A stretch of 39,644 nucleotides of DNA. It comes from a virus. The DNA lies in IMG/VR virus record IMGVR_UViG_3300030060_003886, positions 1 through 39,644 of that record; one strand, given 5' to 3'. Below the pieces are notes generated by a model. The model ran no database searches and was not told the DNA's origin. It was given only the letters and a program-made list of their open reading frames with translations. The translations under genes and the position numbers were made by a program. The first letter of the stretch is position 1; the number at the start of each line of letters is the position of its first letter. Positions 22,686 to 36,424 of the stretch are shown in pieces.

Positions 22686-22720
22686 GAGAACTATGCAAGA
22701 AAACAATATTCTTGCGAATG

Positions 22721-22727
22721 TTTATAG
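22721..22727 (+). promoter_or_regulatory. TATA box for the RFC gene
   Basis: TTTATAG lies with its first base 33 nt before the ATG at 22754, in an AT-rich spacer, the distance expected for an archaeal TATA box with a leaderless mRNA. The same heptamer occurs at 32707. A longer frame using TTG at 22712 would run through this box and is less likely. Confidence 0.55.
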
Positions 22728-22753
22728 CCCTGTTTCGCCCGAGGCCGGGTTCC

Positions 22754-23617
22754 ATGAAGTTAGAAGACATGATTCACGATGCAGAGCACCCCCTCAGTGC
22801 AATCAAAGAAATGCTCTCTGAGGGCAACCTCCCAGATTTGCTATTGCACGGCCCACCCGGAACAGGCAAGACGACCACTGCCCACGCCATTGCCAATCAC
22901 GTCGGGGCTGAGATACACGAGTTCAACGCCTCTGATGAGCGTGGTATAGATTTCATACGCAACAGAGTGAAGGAAGTAGCCACACAAAGAGGCTACAGCG
23001 ACCACACAATCATTCTGCTCGACGAGGCTGACGGCCTCACCAAGCAAGCGCAGGACGCTCTCAGGCGCATCATAGAGACTGGCCATGCTCTCTTCATACT
23101 GACAGCGAACGACTACGCGAACATCACAGGCGCATTGAAGTCACGCTGTCTGGCGTTCAACTTCAGACCATACAACGCAGAAGAGGTACTGACTCTACTA
23201 CAAACAAGGTTCCCTAACCTCACCACAGAGCACTCAGCCATAGTGGCAGCCGCATGGAACGGTGACCTCAGGGAAATCAGCAGAGCCATGGAGAGAGCGA
23301 CTAGTGTTGACAATCTGATTGCCATAGCAGGGAGCACTGCACAAACCTACGCAAACCCCTCACTATCCATCGTTGGAGGCGATTGGGAGAGTCTGAGAAA
23401 GGAACTACTCATACTAACCGGAGTCTCTACCATTTCAATGTTAAACAGGTTGCACGATAAAGTGCGACAACTTGATATGGAACCCGCTAGGTTCCATCAC
23501 TATTCCCGCATCTGGGGAGATGCAGTGCTGGCCGCCCATCAATGGCCCCTCGGCTACGAGGGGTTTGTTGATTGGTTCGTGGGTAGTCTCGCTTCCTTGT
23601 GGGATAAGGAAGAGTGA
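22754..23617 (+). CDS. rfcS: Replication factor C small subunit (clamp loader)
   Basis: The protein is 287 aa, AAA+ family: Walker A GPPGTGKT (residues 33-40), Walker B with D90-E91-A92-D93, sensor 1 LTAN, and the SRC motif (SRC followed by FNFRP) that marks clamp-loader subunits and supplies the trans arginine finger. RFC opens the PCNA ring with ATP and loads it at primer-template junctions. It is shorter than the ~320-residue cellular RfcS, mainly at the N terminus and in the C-terminal collar. No large subunit is seen, so it would act as a homo-oligomer or with host RfcL. It is followed by the candidate ssDNA-binding and RecA-like genes. Confidence 0.92.
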   Translation: MKLEDMIHDAEHPLSAIKEMLSEGNLPDLLLHGPPGTGKTTTAHAIANHVGAEIHEFNASDERGIDFIRNRVKEVATQRGYSDHTIILLDEADGLTKQAQDALRRIIETGHALFILTANDYANITGALKSRCLAFNFRPYNAEEVLTLLQTRFPNLTTEHSAIVAAAWNGDLREISRAMERATSVDNLIAIAGSTAQTYANPSLSIVGGDWESLRKELLILTGVSTISMLNRLHDKVRQLDMEPARFHHYSRIWGDAVLAAHQWPLGYEGFVDWFVGSLASLWDKEE

Positions 23618-23622
23618 AGAAA

Positions 23623-24933
23623 ATGAGTGATAATGAATTACCGGAAGAAGTGAAAGAAAGATTGCGATGGTATGCTGAGCAACACAGCGTGTCAGAGGAC
23701 GAGGCTGCAAAGCAGTACCTCGACTACATCGAGGAGCATCTCGGCATCGTCAACCCAAACGAAGAGGATGAGGACTTCCTCGTTGACGCAGCAGAGACGT
23801 TTGTCGTTGAGAGAAGGGTCATGCAGGCCCCCGGCGGGAGCACCGTCGAGTGGGTAGGCTGCTTCATAGCCATCGAGCCAAAGATACGCGACAAGAGAGC
23901 CAACATTCGAGAGCAGGCACTGTCAGAGGCCAGAAAGGACCTCACTAACGCCATCAACGGCGGGAAGATAGCACGTGCCTTCGTAGAGGGTGGTGTGTGG
24001 ATGCTTGAGAAGGCCAATGGCATAGTAGCCTCCACACAAGAGAGGTTCGTGGAGGGGCAAGACCCATGGTTCCTAGTGAGGGACAGTGGTATGACTCTCT
24101 GTTTGCTGCAAAGCAACCCTGACTGGGCACGACATGGAGAACCCATCGCACCGTCTCTGTTCAGTAGGACCTACAGGTTCTACGGGAACGAGCCTGAGAT
24201 GTACGCCGATGACATGCAGGCCATACGCATTGACGTAGGAGGAGCGACCGAAGAGGACGTATCCAAGGCTGTCAGGATAGGACAGGCCTGTAAGATACAA
24301 CTACGCCCGCAAGGCACTGTTACTGAGGGCTGGGAGGACTCCTATCGCGCTGCTAACAACTTCTTCGCCAACGTAGTCTACACAGACGATTTCGTAGCAG
24401 AGAGCGACAGGCAGTACCTCAAAGGAGAGATTCTCATGGGCGGCATGGATTCCTACGTCGCTGATTTGACTGAACTGATGGAAGTCTATCACAACCAATC
24501 TGAGAAGGTATCTGGGTATGACACTCCCGTTGGTCCTCTCGTTTGCATCAAGGGAAAGGTAACTGACATCAACAGAACCGGATACGAGACCGAGTACGAC
24601 CCATACGGCAAGGACTTCAGCATGAGAGTGTCCTCCTTCCAACTACAGAGGGAGTTCGCCAATGACATGTGGAGAAAGGAAATCACCATCAGAGTGCATG
24701 GTTTCCTTGGTGACGAGTGCCACGCATTCGACTACGAGGGCCGTGAAGGGTGGAAGCCCTATGCAGTGAAGTCCACAGTCTACATCTTCGGCAGGCTCGG
24801 TGTAAGAGCCACTGATGACGGGCAGGTCCCTGCCATGAAGGCCATGGGCATCTTCGTCCCCCCTCGACTGGCAATCCCAGCCGGTGAGGGCGGCGACACG
24901 AGCCTAGACCAGTTCGGCGGTGGTGAGCAATGA
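23623..24933 (+). CDS. Unknown replication-block protein, possible OB-fold ssDNA binder (436 aa)
   Basis: The ATG at 23623 is chosen; a GTG at 23614 overlaps the RFC stop but abuts the purine run that would be its ribosome site. The protein is acidic. Residues about 300-400 are strand-rich (VCIKGKVTDINRTGYE, then ITIRVHGFLGDE, then STVYIFGRLGV), the alternation expected of an OB fold. The C-terminal tail is Gly/Asp/Gln-rich and short, loosely like the tails of SSB proteins. It lies between the clamp loader and a RecA-like ATPase, where viruses often place their ssDNA-binding protein. That function is inference from position and strand pattern. Confidence 0.45.
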   Translation: MSDNELPEEVKERLRWYAEQHSVSEDEAAKQYLDYIEEHLGIVNPNEEDEDFLVDAAETFVVERRVMQAPGGSTVEWVGCFIAIEPKIRDKRANIREQALSEARKDLTNAINGGKIARAFVEGGVWMLEKANGIVASTQERFVEGQDPWFLVRDSGMTLCLLQSNPDWARHGEPIAPSLFSRTYRFYGNEPEMYADDMQAIRIDVGGATEEDVSKAVRIGQACKIQLRPQGTVTEGWEDSYRAANNFFANVVYTDDFVAESDRQYLKGEILMGGMDSYVADLTELMEVYHNQSEKVSGYDTPVGPLVCIKGKVTDINRTGYETEYDPYGKDFSMRVSSFQLQREFANDMWRKEITIRVHGFLGDECHAFDYEGREGWKPYAVKSTVYIFGRLGVRATDDGQVPAMKAMGIFVPPRLAIPAGEGGDTSLDQFGGGEQ

Positions 24934-26144: not shown

Positions 26145-26881
26145 GTCTCGGCAAGGCTGGCCTCATCTCATTCTTGACAGGATTCGGACCGGGAGTGGGT
26201 GACCTACGTCTCAAGGCAGCACAGATGTCGCTGTCTGGGACGGTCGCCCTCCCCACACATATGCTGCACACGAGAATCAGTGCTACTGTGGATGACGCTG
26301 GTGACATAGTCATAGCCAACTTGGCTAAACTGCTGACGTTCGTCAAGACGCTACCACAGGACGCACTGGTGAGTCTGTGGCAGCCTAAAAACAGCACGTT
26401 GAGGGTAATATCAGGCAAGACTGAACTGACTCTACCTACCACGGACTATGTAGCCTCACACAAGAACGTGACCAAGGCCATGGCGTTGGTGACAGATGCA
26501 GAGAACAGCAACTGGAAGTCATGGGCAGGCAAGGCACTCACGTGCTATGGGAGACTGCAAGTGGCTGACTTGACTCAACTGAAATCAGTAGAGAAAGTAA
26601 TTGGCAAGGACACCCCTGTCACGATGAAGTTCGACCCCAACGAGGAGCATCTCGAGTTCGCTGCAGGAGCACGTGGCAGTGCGTCGATGTCCATCTGCGT
26701 AGACGTGGAGGACTGTGACGGTCCCGAGGCTAAGTCCCACTATGGGTCTTGGCTACCTCAAGTATTGCACATGATACCTGCTGGTTCGGTAGAACTTTAC
26801 ACTGCCAATGATTTCGTGTGCATATTCCGTCACACCGAGAAGGACCACCTACTACTAGTGATGGACAAAAGAGGTGAATGA
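26141..26881 (+). CDS. Sliding clamp, PCNA-like (246 aa)
   Basis: The GTG start overlaps the previous stop; 246 aa fits PCNA (about 245-260). The strand-helix alternation covers two domains, and the C terminus is typical: an IPAGSVELYTAND segment, then FVCIFRHTEKDHLLLVMDKR, where PCNA has its last strand pair before a charged tail. The N-terminal LISFLTGF and LSGTVALP also fit. It would form the ring that tethers PolB, loaded by the RFC subunit at 22754. Sequence drift is large, so the call leans on length, ending and neighbours (PolB follows directly). Confidence 0.6.
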   Translation: MSLGKAGLISFLTGFGPGVGDLRLKAAQMSLSGTVALPTHMLHTRISATVDDAGDIVIANLAKLLTFVKTLPQDALVSLWQPKNSTLRVISGKTELTLPTTDYVASHKNVTKAMALVTDAENSNWKSWAGKALTCYGRLQVADLTQLKSVEKVIGKDTPVTMKFDPNEEHLEFAAGARGSASMSICVDVEDCDGPEAKSHYGSWLPQVLHMIPAGSVELYTANDFVCIFRHTEKDHLLLVMDKRGE

Positions 26882-26882
26882 G

Positions 26883-29210
26883 ATGATTGTGGATGACTAC
26901 TACGAGAACGGTGAGACTCCCATTATCTACACACGACATCGTGATGCTGACGGGACTCTGATAGAGAACAATGTCAGGGACTACAAGCCTTACTTCTGGA
27001 TTCCTGCTAACGTAGGAGAGTTCCGCAAACGTAGGTTGTTAGTCAGGTATCCGGGCACTGTCATCACAGATGAGACGTCGGTCGGGCTGGACGGCACTCC
27101 ACTCATCAAGGTCGAAGCCGAGTCCCCCTTCGATATCATTAGCATGAGGAGGGAGTTTGACAAGACCTACGAGGCTGACATCAGATTCACAGATAGGTGG
27201 TTGATAGACAACGTGCCTGTCATGCCAGACTGGAAGCCACGTAAGTGGTGGTTTGACATAGAGTGTGATACTGGTGACACTCCCTTCACTACCATCATCG
27301 CTGTCATAGACAGTGACCTAGACAAGCCAGTGGTATTCGCATGGGCAGACGAGCGAACCAACTGCTCTTACGGTGACCCCGGTCTAGGCATACGAAGAAC
27401 CCGCACTGTGCGGGACATCGAGTACGAATTGAACATCTATGGTAGCGAGAGTGATTTGCATGAGGAATTCGTTGAGTTCCTACAGGAGCGTGACCCTGAC
27501 ATGATGATAGCACACGCAGGTTCCTTCTTCGACATCCCTCACCTGCTACAAAGGATACCCAATCCTCAGAGGCTCAGTCCAGTGGGACAGATACGCAGGA
27601 TGAAGAGGGGTCAGGATAGATACGACCCTACTGACCAACCCATCGTAGGAAGATGGCAGTTCGATACAGCAGCACAGGCTGCTAGTGGTACAGGTTTTGA
27701 GCGAGTCTGGAAAGACAGTGGTGGTGGACAACTACCTTCCCTCAAACTCAACGACATCGCTGAGGAAGTAGGGTTAGGGTCCAAACTAACTGAGGAAATA
27801 GAGGGGATGGATGTTCACAATGGCTGGTATGAATACTGGGATGACTTCGTGGACTACTGTCTCCTAGACACTCACCTACTCAGAGGGATAGATGAGGCAC
27901 GGAATGTTACTGACTTCTATATTCAGATGGTCAGACTCTGCGGTGTCTCCCTCCCATCAGCCTGTAATGTCACTAACTTCGCTCGAGGTCTACTGTCTCG
28001 AAGGACTGACAAGAAGGCGCACACTCGATTCAAGGCGGGTGACATTGACAAACTCAAAGGGGCCGAAGTAGGTCTCAACTGTGTGACAGGCCTCCATGAG
28101 GGAGTGGGTGTCATAGATTACAAGGGACTCTATCCCTCGATAATTCTAGGCAGCAACCTATCATATGAGACTAAGAGGGACGGGCCGGGTGAGAACATCA
28201 TCCAGTTGGAGAATGGTTCCTACTGGGACCAGACAGAGCAAGGACTCCTACCATCTGTCGTAGAGTATCTATTCGATTATCGTTCCACATGCAAACAACG
28301 CATGCGAGACGCCAAGACTCCAGAGGAGAGAGCGGCTTGGAACACTACGCAGATGGCAGTCAAGCGCGTCATGGCCAGCCTCTATGGTATGTGCGCTCAC
28401 ATTGGCTATGGATGGGCTGATGGTGACATCGCACACACCATCACACAGGAAGGCAGACGTTGTATCCGCCTCCTAGACAGCGTAGCCACAACCTATGGCT
28501 ACGAGTGCCTCTACGGGCACACCGACTCGGCATTCGTCAAAGTCCCCAATGTCGAAGAGGCACACAAACTCTCTGATAGGATAACAGTAGCAGTGCAAAG
28601 GGAAACAGGGAACAGTATGCTCTTCGCTGAACTGGAAGCGTGGATGCCCTACTGGCTGCTCACTAAGAAGAACAGATATGTCGGCAAGGTGGCATGGCCT
28701 GAGGAAGACCAAGGCAAACTCAAGGTGGCAGGCTTCGGCATGAAAGCATCGAACACCGCACCATTGTCGAAGAAGGTACAGAAGGGAGTGTTCGAGTTGA
28801 TATGTGATGGTGCTAATGAGGACGCTGTCCAAGAGTTCGTGTACCCCATCGCCATGAGTGTCAGGAAAGGTGACGTCCAACTGGAAGACGTATCCATGAA
28901 GACCAGACTGGGCATGCACCTCAAAGAATACAAAGTGCTCAGCGGTGCATCCAAAGCAGCGTCCTTCTACAATGACAAATTCGACGAGAAGTTTGGCAAA
29001 GGCGACTCGGTCCCATGGACTTACGTCAAAGAGGAGCCGGGCATCGCAGCCTATCGTGAACCAGAGGATTTGAGGGGTCTCACATTGGATTCAGATATGA
29101 TTTTGAAGAAAATGCTAAAGACCAAGTTGGACAGTATCTATTCTACCCTTTCTTGGGACTTGGACGGAGCACTCGGTGCACCCACTCCCAAGGCTTACGG
29201 GTGGTGGTGA
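26883..29210 (+). CDS. polB: Family B DNA polymerase (775 aa)
   Basis: The ATG at 26883 follows GAGGTGA and lies just after the clamp stop. Exonuclease motifs: Exo I DIE (D125, E127), Exo II in FFDIPHLL, Exo III YCLLD. Polymerase motifs: A, DYKGLYPSI with D412; B, KRVMASLYG; C, YGHTDS with D548. The usual motif C is DTD, so the first Asp is replaced by His546, while the second, the main metal ligand, is kept. Length fits archaeal PolB. It is the replicative polymerase, with proofreading. No PIP box is seen at its own C terminus, but the next mini-gene carries two. Confidence 0.95.
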   Translation: MIVDDYYENGETPIIYTRHRDADGTLIENNVRDYKPYFWIPANVGEFRKRRLLVRYPGTVITDETSVGLDGTPLIKVEAESPFDIISMRREFDKTYEADIRFTDRWLIDNVPVMPDWKPRKWWFDIECDTGDTPFTTIIAVIDSDLDKPVVFAWADERTNCSYGDPGLGIRRTRTVRDIEYELNIYGSESDLHEEFVEFLQERDPDMMIAHAGSFFDIPHLLQRIPNPQRLSPVGQIRRMKRGQDRYDPTDQPIVGRWQFDTAAQAASGTGFERVWKDSGGGQLPSLKLNDIAEEVGLGSKLTEEIEGMDVHNGWYEYWDDFVDYCLLDTHLLRGIDEARNVTDFYIQMVRLCGVSLPSACNVTNFARGLLSRRTDKKAHTRFKAGDIDKLKGAEVGLNCVTGLHEGVGVIDYKGLYPSIILGSNLSYETKRDGPGENIIQLENGSYWDQTEQGLLPSVVEYLFDYRSTCKQRMRDAKTPEERAAWNTTQMAVKRVMASLYGMCAHIGYGWADGDIAHTITQEGRRCIRLLDSVATTYGYECLYGHTDSAFVKVPNVEEAHKLSDRITVAVQRETGNSMLFAELEAWMPYWLLTKKNRYVGKVAWPEEDQGKLKVAGFGMKASNTAPLSKKVQKGVFELICDGANEDAVQEFVYPIAMSVRKGDVQLEDVSMKTRLGMHLKEYKVLSGASKAASFYNDKFDEKFGKGDSVPWTYVKEEPGIAAYREPEDLRGLTLDSDMILKKMLKTKLDSIYSTLSWDLDGALGAPTPKAYGWW

Positions 29211-29214
29211 AAAC

Positions 29215-29334
29215 ATGGAAGAAGAAAAGACAACACAAATGAGGCAAACAACGCTGTGGGAGTTCCTCCCCAGCAATGGAAGACAGACCACCTTGGAGGA
29301 GTTCGGTGTCAGAAGAACAGCAAATCCCAACTGA
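29215..29334 (+). CDS. 39-aa protein with two PIP-box-like motifs
   Basis: The ATG at 29215 lies 4 nt after the PolB stop, with GGTGGTGA as ribosome site. The product carries QTTLWEFL (residues 11-18) and QTTLEEFG (24-31). Both match Qxx[LI]xxF, the core of the archaeal PIP box through which polymerases, ligases and nucleases bind PCNA; the second lacks the final aromatic residue. Between them are only SNGR and a Pro. The likely role is bridging two clamp subunits or tethering PolB to the clamp, replacing the PIP box missing from PolB. The sequence of the second motif also holds the GGAGGA ribosome site of the next gene. Confidence 0.6.
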   Translation: MEEEKTTQMRQTTLWEFLPSNGRQTTLEEFGVRRTANPN

Positions 29335-29587
29335 CTCTGTGCTTTGGCGGGTGGCTCACCTGCTTCGTGAGAAGAACGAGAAGTATGGCGATAGCGCTCT
29401 CGACCCAATGAGACTGTTCTACAAGGGTGGGGACGACGCTGCTGACATGATTAGGATACGGATAGATGACAAGTTGTCTCGACTGGCACGTGGTAGTGAG
29501 GGTATCGAGACAGACCTCGACATCTATCATGACCTCATTGGTTACCTCGCGCTTCTCATAGTAGCACTAGAGGACGGTGATAAGTAA
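29306..29587 (+). CDS. MazG/DUF1599-like small phage protein (93 aa)
   Basis: The GTG at 29306 is chosen because GGAGGA at 29295-29300 lies 5 nt upstream; an ATG at 29276 lacks one. EKNEKYGDSAL, then RIDDKLSRLARG, and DLIGYLALL near the C terminus match the all-alpha phage family related to MazG (the nucleotide-modification-associated DUF1599 group). Acidic residues on these helices bind metal in relatives. It may hydrolyse or sense nucleotides, but no activity is shown for this size class. Confidence 0.6.
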   Translation: MSEEQQIPTDSVLWRVAHLLREKNEKYGDSALDPMRLFYKGGDDAADMIRIRIDDKLSRLARGSEGIETDLDIYHDLIGYLALLIVALEDGDK

Positions 29588-30504: not shown

Positions 30505-30629
30505 GTGACGAGTTAGAACACTGGAGTCAGAAACACTTCGCAGAGTTGGCCTTCTGGAGAACGATAGCAGCAGGAGTCAACATCATACTGTCTTCACTGA
30601 TAGCGTTGAAAATATTCGGGTGGATATGA
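30501..30629 (+). CDS. Small single-span membrane protein (42 aa)
   Basis: The ATG at 30501 overlaps the nuclease stop. After a charged N terminus, residues about 18-42 form one hydrophobic helix (AAGVNIILSSLIALKIF). The stop overlaps the next start (ATGA). Possible roles are membrane anchoring, host interaction or lysis; none is supported further. Confidence 0.55.
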   Translation: MSDELEHWSQKHFAELAFWRTIAAGVNIILSSLIALKIFGWI

Positions 30630-30910
30630 TGGACAGGGACTTCCGCATTGCAATGGAAGAAATCAGGTGGACGGCTAAGGACCAATTGCGGCAAGCAATG
30701 GTAGTCTCCTTGAGAAAGCAGTTCGACAGTGACAATGTGTTCATGCACTTCTCTGACGACATCCCCAGAGGGCTACTGATAGACCCAGTGCCGATTGGAG
30801 ATTCCTTGGACATCAGGATACCAAAAGACCTCAGTCCTACGTCAGTAGAAGAACTATACTTTGCGTGTGTGAGTGCTTGTCAGGAGTTCAAGTTGGGTGG
30901 AAGAGAATGA
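30626..30910 (+). CDS. Small unknown protein (94 aa)
   Basis: The ATG at 30626 overlaps the previous stop; ATG 30629 or GTG 30620 are alternatives. The first 40 residues are amphipathic helix with Arg/Gln, followed by a strand-rich middle (GLLIDPVPIGDSLDIRIP) and a Cys-containing end. No family is recognised. It sits between the nuclease and the primase in a single coupled chain. Confidence 0.55.
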   Translation: MMDRDFRIAMEEIRWTAKDQLRQAMVVSLRKQFDSDNVFMHFSDDIPRGLLIDPVPIGDSLDIRIPKDLSPTSVEELYFACVSACQEFKLGGRE

Positions 30911-34786: not shown

Positions 34787-34908
34787 ACCTACTAGAAGAC
34801 GCTCCTGCAGGTTTCTTTCAGACTTTCTACATCACCATGTGTGAGTACCTTGATGTGGACCCCGACGCACTATTCATCCAATTAATGGAGGAAACACACG
34901 ATGAGTGA
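34783..34908 (+). CDS. Small acidic unknown protein (41 aa)
   Basis: A GTG at 34783 overlaps the exonuclease stop and has GAGGTGA about 5 nt upstream. The frame runs 41 residues to 34908, 8 nt into the thermosome start. The product is helical, acidic and aromatic (GFFQTFYITMCEYLDVD). Coupling on both sides supports it; function is unknown. Confidence 0.5.
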   Translation: MNLLEDAPAGFFQTFYITMCEYLDVDPDALFIQLMEETHDE

Positions 34909-36424
34909 AAAAGAACAACAGACAGGAAGAGAAGCACAAATGAGCAACATAAAGGCAGCCATGAACGTGGCTGAGACCGTCAGGTCTACCCTAGGTCCAG
35001 CAGGTATGGACAAGTTGCTGACGAACGGCAGTCACCACACTGTAACTAATGATGGTGTTACGGTTCTGAGAGAACTGGACATCGCGCACCCCGGTGCACA
35101 GATGATGGTAGAGGCAAGCAAGACGCAAGAGGCAGTGTGTAAAGACGGCACTACCAGCGTCGTTGTGACAGCAGGACAGATGCTGGCTCTCAGCCAAGGA
35201 CTGCTGATGAGAGGCATACACCCACGTGTCCTCATCAGGTCATTCCAAGAGGGAAAGAACCTAGCATTAGAGCACCTCGAATCTCAAGACATCGACATTC
35301 TAGACGCAGCCAAAACCGCACTGCGGGGCAAGGCTGCAGAGAGTGATTTGGAATACGCTGCTGAGTTATGCGTGAAAGCGTGTCAGAAGGCAGTAGGTAA
35401 TCTAGACCACATCACCGTCATCACGCAAGCAGGTGGCGCACTGTCAGACTCCTACGTCCAAGACGGGCTTGTCATCAACAAGGAGTTCGCCAATGAGGTA
35501 GAGAACAAGTCAGTGGAAGGCAACATCAACATCCTACTACTCAACGGAGGACTAGAGGGGTACGACATCAAGGAAGTGCAGATGCAAGTCGAGAACATGC
35601 AGCAGTTGCACGAGTTGAAGCAACAGGAACTGAGCATGCTGAGCGAGGTCGCCTCCATGGTGGCTGGTGCAGTAGGGCCAGACGGTGTTGTCTTCGTGAG
35701 GGACAGCGTGCATGAGGCAGTAGCACACTACCTCTCCCAGCACGGCATCCCACTAGTCACACGTTTGCAGCAAAGCGACATGGAAGGCTTGTCCAGATTG
35801 TTGGACGTGCCTATCTACCACAGAGTGACTGATGTCGATGAGCCCATCATGGCGACAGACGCATCCGTCAAGCAAGAGAGGATAGGTGACTTGGATTTCA
35901 TCACCGTATCAGGTAGTGGTGAGGCTACGTGCCTAGTGGTCAGAGGCGCCACCAGACAGACCATAGAGGAATACGAGAGAGCATTCGACGACGCCATTGG
36001 TGTCACCTGCCTCGCCATGAGTGACGGAGGGAAGGGGTTCCCCGGTGGCGGTGCCTCTTTCTCCGCAGCATCCATGACCGTGAGAGAGCATGCAGCCACG
36101 AGGCCCAACATGACAGCCAGAGAGAGGATGTGTCTCGAGGCATACGCAGACGCTCTGGAGATTATACCAGCAGCGATAGCGAACAACGCAGGCATGGACC
36201 CACTCGACGTGGTCATGGAACTGAGGTCGGCTGAGGATGGTGTCGGCTTATACATAGACGATAGAGGAGTCGGTGAGATATGCAACACACTAGAGAAGGG
36301 AGTGGTGGAGCCAGAGTCTCTGGTGAAGCAAGTCATAAGCAGTGCGACTGAGGTAGCCACTGCCATCTTGAGGATAGACGACATCATGGCAATGAGGGAA
36401 GACAATGGAAACCTTGTTGGCTAA
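34901..36424 (+). CDS. ths: Group II chaperonin subunit (thermosome)
   Basis: The protein is 507 aa; the ATG at 34901 has GGAGGA upstream. Signatures: RSTLGPAGMDKLL (usually GPKGMDK), NDGVTVL, KDGTTSVVV (usually GDGTTS), FPGGGA and AIANNAGMDPLDVVMELR. The apical domain has the helical protrusion that serves as built-in lid. Shorter than cellular forms (about 540) by the N-terminal arm and Gly/Met-rich tail. It would fold capsid or replication proteins in a double ring, alone or mixed with host subunits. Encoded after the exonuclease; the membrane mini-gene begins inside its 3' end. Confidence 0.95.
   Translation: MSEKEQQTGREAQMSNIKAAMNVAETVRSTLGPAGMDKLLTNGSHHTVTNDGVTVLRELDIAHPGAQMMVEASKTQEAVCKDGTTSVVVTAGQMLALSQGLLMRGIHPRVLIRSFQEGKNLALEHLESQDIDILDAAKTALRGKAAESDLEYAAELCVKACQKAVGNLDHITVITQAGGALSDSYVQDGLVINKEFANEVENKSVEGNINILLLNGGLEGYDIKEVQMQVENMQQLHELKQQELSMLSEVASMVAGAVGPDGVVFVRDSVHEAVAHYLSQHGIPLVTRLQQSDMEGLSRLLDVPIYHRVTDVDEPIMATDASVKQERIGDLDFITVSGSGEATCLVVRGATRQTIEEYERAFDDAIGVTCLAMSDGGKGFPGGGASFSAASMTVREHAATRPNMTARERMCLEAYADALEIIPAAIANNAGMDPLDVVMELRSAEDGVGLYIDDRGVGEICNTLEKGVVEPESLVKQVISSATEVATAILRIDDIMAMREDNGNLVG

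Follow-up and report, generated by a model that had tools for sequence, protein, structure and literature searches.

A mini-gene with PCNA-binding-type motifs, overlooked behind the DNA polymerase gene of a marine archaeal virus and many distant relatives

Does the short frame directly behind the family B DNA polymerase (PolB) gene of this virus encode a protein, and would that protein bind a sliding clamp? The window, which is the whole stretch of 39,644 nucleotides that was analysed, contains at this place a frame translated as MEEEKTTQMRQTTLWEFLPSNGRQTTLEEFGVRRTANPN. The original prediction gave the position of this frame, its length of 39 aa, the motifs QTTLWEFL and QTTLEEFG, and the 13 residues from the Q of the first motif to the Q of the second, and all of these proved correct. 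The ATG lies 4 nt beyond the PolB TGA, in a frame that differs from that of PolB, and is preceded by a GGTGGTGA ribosome site (Table 1).

Both motifs, as well as those of the relatives, contain the Q-x-x-h-x-x-a core of PIP-motif PCNA ligands. The strict QXXhXXaa form has a second aromatic residue (PMC4929162), which is absent here at position 8; the window has L and G, and the family mostly G. Judged by these residues, the motifs are of a single-aromatic PIP subtype. The mini-protein had no Pfam match. For tandem Qxx[LI]xx[FWY] pairs, simulation under a first-order Markov model gave an expectation of about 0.04 for the whole window, where one was observed, and of about 1.5e-4 for the 300 nt behind PolB on one strand. 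Of all plausible window genes, the mini-gene alone has QTTL-type motifs; Qxx[LIM]xx[FWY] occurs only a few times elsewhere, inside larger proteins.

Table 1. Coordinates of the mini-gene, its neighbours, and small proteins of related loci. Positions refer to the window unless a locus (L number) is given.
Feature	Position	Strand	Basis or remark
AAA+ ATPase, likely clamp-loader (RFC small subunit) homologue	22712..23617	+	Pfam AAA E 2.3e-18, DNA_pol3_delta2 E 1.1e-9
Predicted PCNA-type sliding clamp, 246 aa	26141..26881	+	AlphaFold2 pLDDT 95.2, pTM 0.89; Foldseek to clamps
Family B DNA polymerase, 778 aa, C terminus without PIP-type motif	26874..29210	+	Pfam DNA_pol_B E 1.3e-34
GGTGGTGGTGA-type ribosome-binding stretch	29201..29210	+	Overlaps PolB stop, just 5' of mini-gene ATG
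Mini-gene, 39 aa, two PIP-type motifs	29215..29334	+	Translation; kept behind PolB in relatives
Motif 1, QTTLWEFL	29245..29268	+	Core Q, L/I, F/W retained in close relatives
Motif 2, QTTLEEFG	29284..29307	+	Amino acids invariant in nine close relatives
Next gene, 93 aa from GTG, overlaps mini-gene end	29306..29587	+	phrog_1485 E 2.7e-11, unknown function
Protein of ~100 aa between Cas4-like nuclease and primase	30620-30910; L069:8562-8900, L088:9593-9913, L096:8897-9220		
Chaperonin	34901-36424		Read by eye
CxxC small protein (stop-to-stop frames)	L082:2939-3235, L088:3999-4238, L101:3891-4235, L104:3999-4238		

The PolB search of viral contigs resulted in 17 loci at first and in 80 loci with an alignment, and the set of relatives comprises 65 distinct PolBs with identities down to about 40%. 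A mini-ORF with the motif RQT[TK][LI]xE[FWY] was found just behind PolB in tandem form in 22 of the 65 and in single form in five (L036, L037, L044, L070, and L090); the script scored a sixth, L097, as single, which was excluded because its motif sits on a different, CxxC-type protein. All close relatives (84-91% PolB identity) have an ORF of 29-39 aa with two motifs 13 residues apart. Further away, L069 (68%) reads QRKLTEW and QTTLTEW, and L041-L043 (63-64%) read Q[KRT]KLT[QR]W and QTTIDEW. The motif pair also stands behind PolBs sharing merely 40-47% identity; in the far clade (41-45%), the L072 mini-ORF reads MNNERQTTLDEWGMTMDNTRQTTLDEWGMTLE... and L095 has QTTLDEF and QKTLKDY. One decayed motif, QMTLEEC, was seen in L035. 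Across the family, the mini-proteins are 25-69 aa long (29 aa in the shortest tandem members), the motifs are spaced by 13-19 residues, and the consensus is R-Q-T-[TK]-[LI]-x-E-[FWY], often followed by G, which was partly set by the search expression, except for the R, E, and G. On the PolB tree, the tandem form is present in both deep clades and takes 6 changes, versus 18.6 with shuffled labels. A lack of conservation in related viruses had been named in the original prediction as a result that would overturn it; the motifs are kept in 27 of the 65 distinct relatives, and the prediction was not refuted by this test.

A DNA pattern for the tandem motif matched 13 contigs, only one of them new. 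For specificity, the pattern CARACNAVNYTNNNNGANTDB was run over twelve virus records of 21-118 kb. Of its 15 matches, 13 fell in the mini-gene; the other two were in the small protein that precedes the L069 primase and, with a final Cys, at another place. With the pattern reversed as a control, the same records had no match. A hand-made consensus of 45 aa retrieved nothing relevant from the phage collection, and the literature search found no paper on such a mini-protein.

The codons themselves were then considered. In nine close relatives, the 21-codon core has a pN of 0.18 and a pS of 0.52, a ratio of 0.34, which indicates purifying selection. Motif 2 has no amino-acid change in these relatives, but its DNA is doubly constrained, as a GGAGGAG within it closely precedes the GTG start of the next gene and is likely the ribosome site of that gene; motif 1 and the distant relatives are free of this overlap. 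The same GGAGGAG could mean that no protein is made and that the DNA is kept solely for the ribosome site. We regard this as having a negligible chance, since motif 1 falls outside that site, distant relatives encode the same residues with different codons and spacings, pN/pS is low, and the motif pattern is specific to the mini-gene in whole records; the comparative data already contradict it. The next gene (phrog_1485) contains the stretches KYGDSALDP and DDKLSRLARG, which recur behind PolB in relatives.

A few bases 5' of the start of every mini-ORF stands GGTGGTGA, GAGGTGA, GGAGG, or a closely similar site. The gap from the PolB stop ranges from -4 to +13 nt with changing frames (4, 5, 9, 11, 13, 1, and -4 nt). 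The mini-frame lies immediately 3' of PolB and shares the PolB frame in L074, L076, L078, L080, L081, and L089 (gap of 9 nt), so it might belong to PolB, whose C terminus would be lengthened through a frameshift or stop read-through. This seems very improbable, because the frame relative to PolB varies among close relatives while the start codon and ribosome site are constant. The varying frame and the kept ribosome sites favour an independent, coupled gene over a conserved frameshift. By the comparison of sequences, the frame is a real conserved gene below the usual length cut-offs, and the mini-ORF is presumably translated.

The clamp candidate lies upstream of PolB. The fold of its product, predicted with 28 relatives, has the two domains and the length of roughly 250 aa of a sliding clamp, and the top Foldseek matches are sliding clamps, including archaeal PCNA at a TM of up to 0.72 (about 0.7 in general). 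No Pfam, NCBIfam, or PDB sequence match was found for it, PHROGs gave a weak processivity-factor match, and the profile-profile comparison with the PCNA of the host phylum was colinear and weak (probability 4.9%). The predicted structure thus identifies a PCNA-type clamp that is a distant homologue by fold only, and in that sense the PCNA-like gene of the original prediction holds. Clamp homologues were found upstream of PolB in every locus whose contig reaches that far. Structure 7evp, of the phage clamp inhibitor Gp168 (Twort-type), a small virus-encoded clamp ligand, was also among the Foldseek matches. Gp168 has a bacterial clamp as target and is a folded protein without a tandem peptide motif, whereas the mini-protein is a peptide of tandem motifs.

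The AAA+ ATPase is a likely clamp loader, and its name, RFC-S, is given by analogy (PMC10768690). Magroviruses, ocean viruses without a cultured member, have both PCNA and RFC-S in the ICTV listing (PMC10768690). The virus may belong to Magrovirales, which have their own PolB, clamp, clamp-loader ATPase, and chaperonin on a Caudoviricetes genome of marine archaea; the replication genes and the chaperonin of the window fit this description (PMC10768690), and there was no magrovirus among the phage-collection matches listed. Between the loader and the clamp, frame 23614-24933 encodes a large conserved protein that is RPA-like by position and reading only, with no Pfam support. A candidate PIP motif at its C terminus (DTSLDQFG) was rejected, as the relatives keep GG[DN]TxxxQ[FY] instead.

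The last 40 residues of PolB were also inspected. No PIP-type motif occurred there in any of the 65 PolBs, which extends the original observation on the polymerase of this virus. Among the other viral PolBs of the phage collection, the nearest are those of the haloarchaeal Hafunaviridae, which end in EGQSQTGLAAFC with the motif QTGLAAFC; the PolB of a T4-like cyanophage has ASLEFLFG at its end. In these viruses the clamp-type motif is single and part of PolB, whereas in the mini-gene it is separate and tandem. The mini-gene thus lies at the position that a clamp-binding tail takes up in some other viruses. No clamp-type tail was seen in the PolBs of HVTV-1 and a Salinibacter virus.

From the identity of the motifs, we infer that the mini-protein very likely binds a sliding clamp. 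The mini-gene would encode a separate PCNA-interacting peptide, bivalent in most cases, whose translation is coupled to that of PolB. Its RQT[TK]LxE[FWY] motifs could each fill the interdomain pocket of the clamp, and the partner would most likely be the clamp of the virus itself, encoded just upstream of PolB; the operon position points to this clamp rather than to that of the host. The clamp-binding tail present in cis in some related viral PolBs may here be provided in trans by the mini-protein, which may also help to set which protein occupies the viral clamp next to the polymerase. Its place in the operon and the lack of such a tail on PolB favour a role in the viral replisome over a block of host PCNA. 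We lean, with modest confidence, towards the whole statement of a coupled PIP mini-protein that serves the viral clamp and replisome in trans. It is supported by the tandem or single mini-gene in those 27 relatives, in two deep clades and always with a ribosome site; the counterpoint is the clade L045-L068, which manages without the motif. That the polymerase gave up its clamp tail, and that the tail persists as a separate, co-translated, and duplicated mini-protein controlling the contact of polymerase and clamp, is a more doubtful proposal.

The effect on the clamp may be regulatory or one of tethering. Tethering PolB requires a part that binds PolB; no such segment is visible in the mini-protein, and tandem members of 29 aa have little spare room, which makes tethering a weak point of the interpretation. 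Docking in the clamp was tried with a tethered-chain model of L089, in which the stops of the natural same-frame read-through were read as residues (a modelling device; no such protein is claimed); the mini-protein was unplaced with a pLDDT of 29-43, and the pTM of the whole model was 0.58, a crude and weak test that counts neither for nor against clamp binding.

Neighbouring PCNA pockets are an estimated 50-60 A apart. Seven residues, about 25 A at most, separate the phenylalanine of motif 1 from the glutamine of motif 2, so one peptide is unlikely to bridge two subunits of the same ring. Of the original interpretation, the separate PIP-type mini-protein, the PCNA-like clamp, and the motif-free PolB stand, the tethering of PolB is weakened, and the crosslinking of clamp subunits is geometrically unlikely. 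Two motifs spaced by 13-19 residues, as in most members, might join two different rings instead, e.g., for fork coupling or clamp storage. We give such a connector little credence, as there are five relatives with a single motif, the spacing is not rigidly conserved, and the pockets of one ring are too distant by estimate. Because these five relatives keep a single motif, bivalency appears usual but not essential.

The thermosome query for host genomes returned nothing, and a looser query gave Thermoplasmata, with no labelled Poseidoniales. We take the phylum of the Thermoplasmata genome to be that of the host, as Poseidoniales belong there. In this presumed host phylum, 26 of 30 FEN1 loci have a C-terminal Qxx[LIV]xx[FW], often without the second aromatic residue (e.g., QKSLFDFG, QSSLDAFL, and QKNLFDF). 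Given these tails, the viral motifs look functional for clamp binding in cells of this kind, and the motif sequence alone cannot tell the viral clamp from the host clamp as partner. The match in motif type also suits the main rival, a host-directed blocker that would saturate host PCNA, exclude polymerases, FEN1, and RFC, and stop replication or repair. Clamps are blocked in such a manner by p21-type peptides and phage clamp inhibitors, and a very short protein of almost only clamp motifs resembles a competitor peptide. Still, a blocker needs no place directly behind PolB in a replication operon, yet this place is kept in both deep clades, and one that also bound the viral clamp would harm the virus. 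We consider it unlikely, though a serious contender.

Several known systems resemble the mini-protein in part. Archaeal PIP tails (FEN1, RFC-L, PolB, NucS, and NreA), with the published consensus KTTQSTLDSFFK, share with it the Q-x-T/S-L-x-x-F/W core, but they belong to enzymes, whereas the motif here stands alone, usually twice, in its own gene (PMC4929162). TIP of Thermococcales is likewise small, linked to PCNA, and without an enzyme domain, and has a possible N-terminal PIP motif; however, it is a cellular inhibitor of PCNA of 64 aa with a conserved, partial PH-like C-terminal half (PMC4929162). The mini-protein is viral, 25-69 aa long, tandem, encoded in the PolB operon, and has no PH-like part. 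PBP1 and PBP2 of Sulfolobus PolB1 are also small proteins accompanying an archaeal family B polymerase, but they bind PolB1 itself, and the PIP motif is mentioned zero times in that report (PMC5418573); no sequence likeness is claimed. Clamp-binding motifs are normally tails of enzymes, and here a conserved viral gene consists of little else, which raises a testable question: can contact with the clamp be provided in trans, or does the virus carry a clamp competitor of its own? The ocean viruses also gain a gene below the usual length cut-offs and a fold-based identification of their clamp.

Outside one clade, the relatives without the mini-gene mostly bear the motif on other small proteins beside the clamp or primase, and some viruses have the mini-gene plus another such protein. 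In L082, L088, L101, and L104, one PIP-type motif is carried by a CxxC protein, and the stop codon of its gene overlaps the start of the clamp gene. The CxxC protein has a conserved C terminus, [ST]E[RKS][VI]G[MF]xxxxRKYRG. Another carrier, about 100 aa long and encoded between Cas4-like nuclease and primase, has the motif in L082, L087, L088, L093, L096, and L102; its counterpart in the window has no PIP-type motif. In L069, this protein has two C-terminal motifs and ends in QTTLDEWF. Within the flanks seen, the motif is absent from the clade L045-L068, with L040 and L057. The clamp C termini are of the KHQEG type in the motif-free clade, versus the DQR type in most others, and a changed clamp docking with co-variation of pocket and ligand is possible there, as one or few events.
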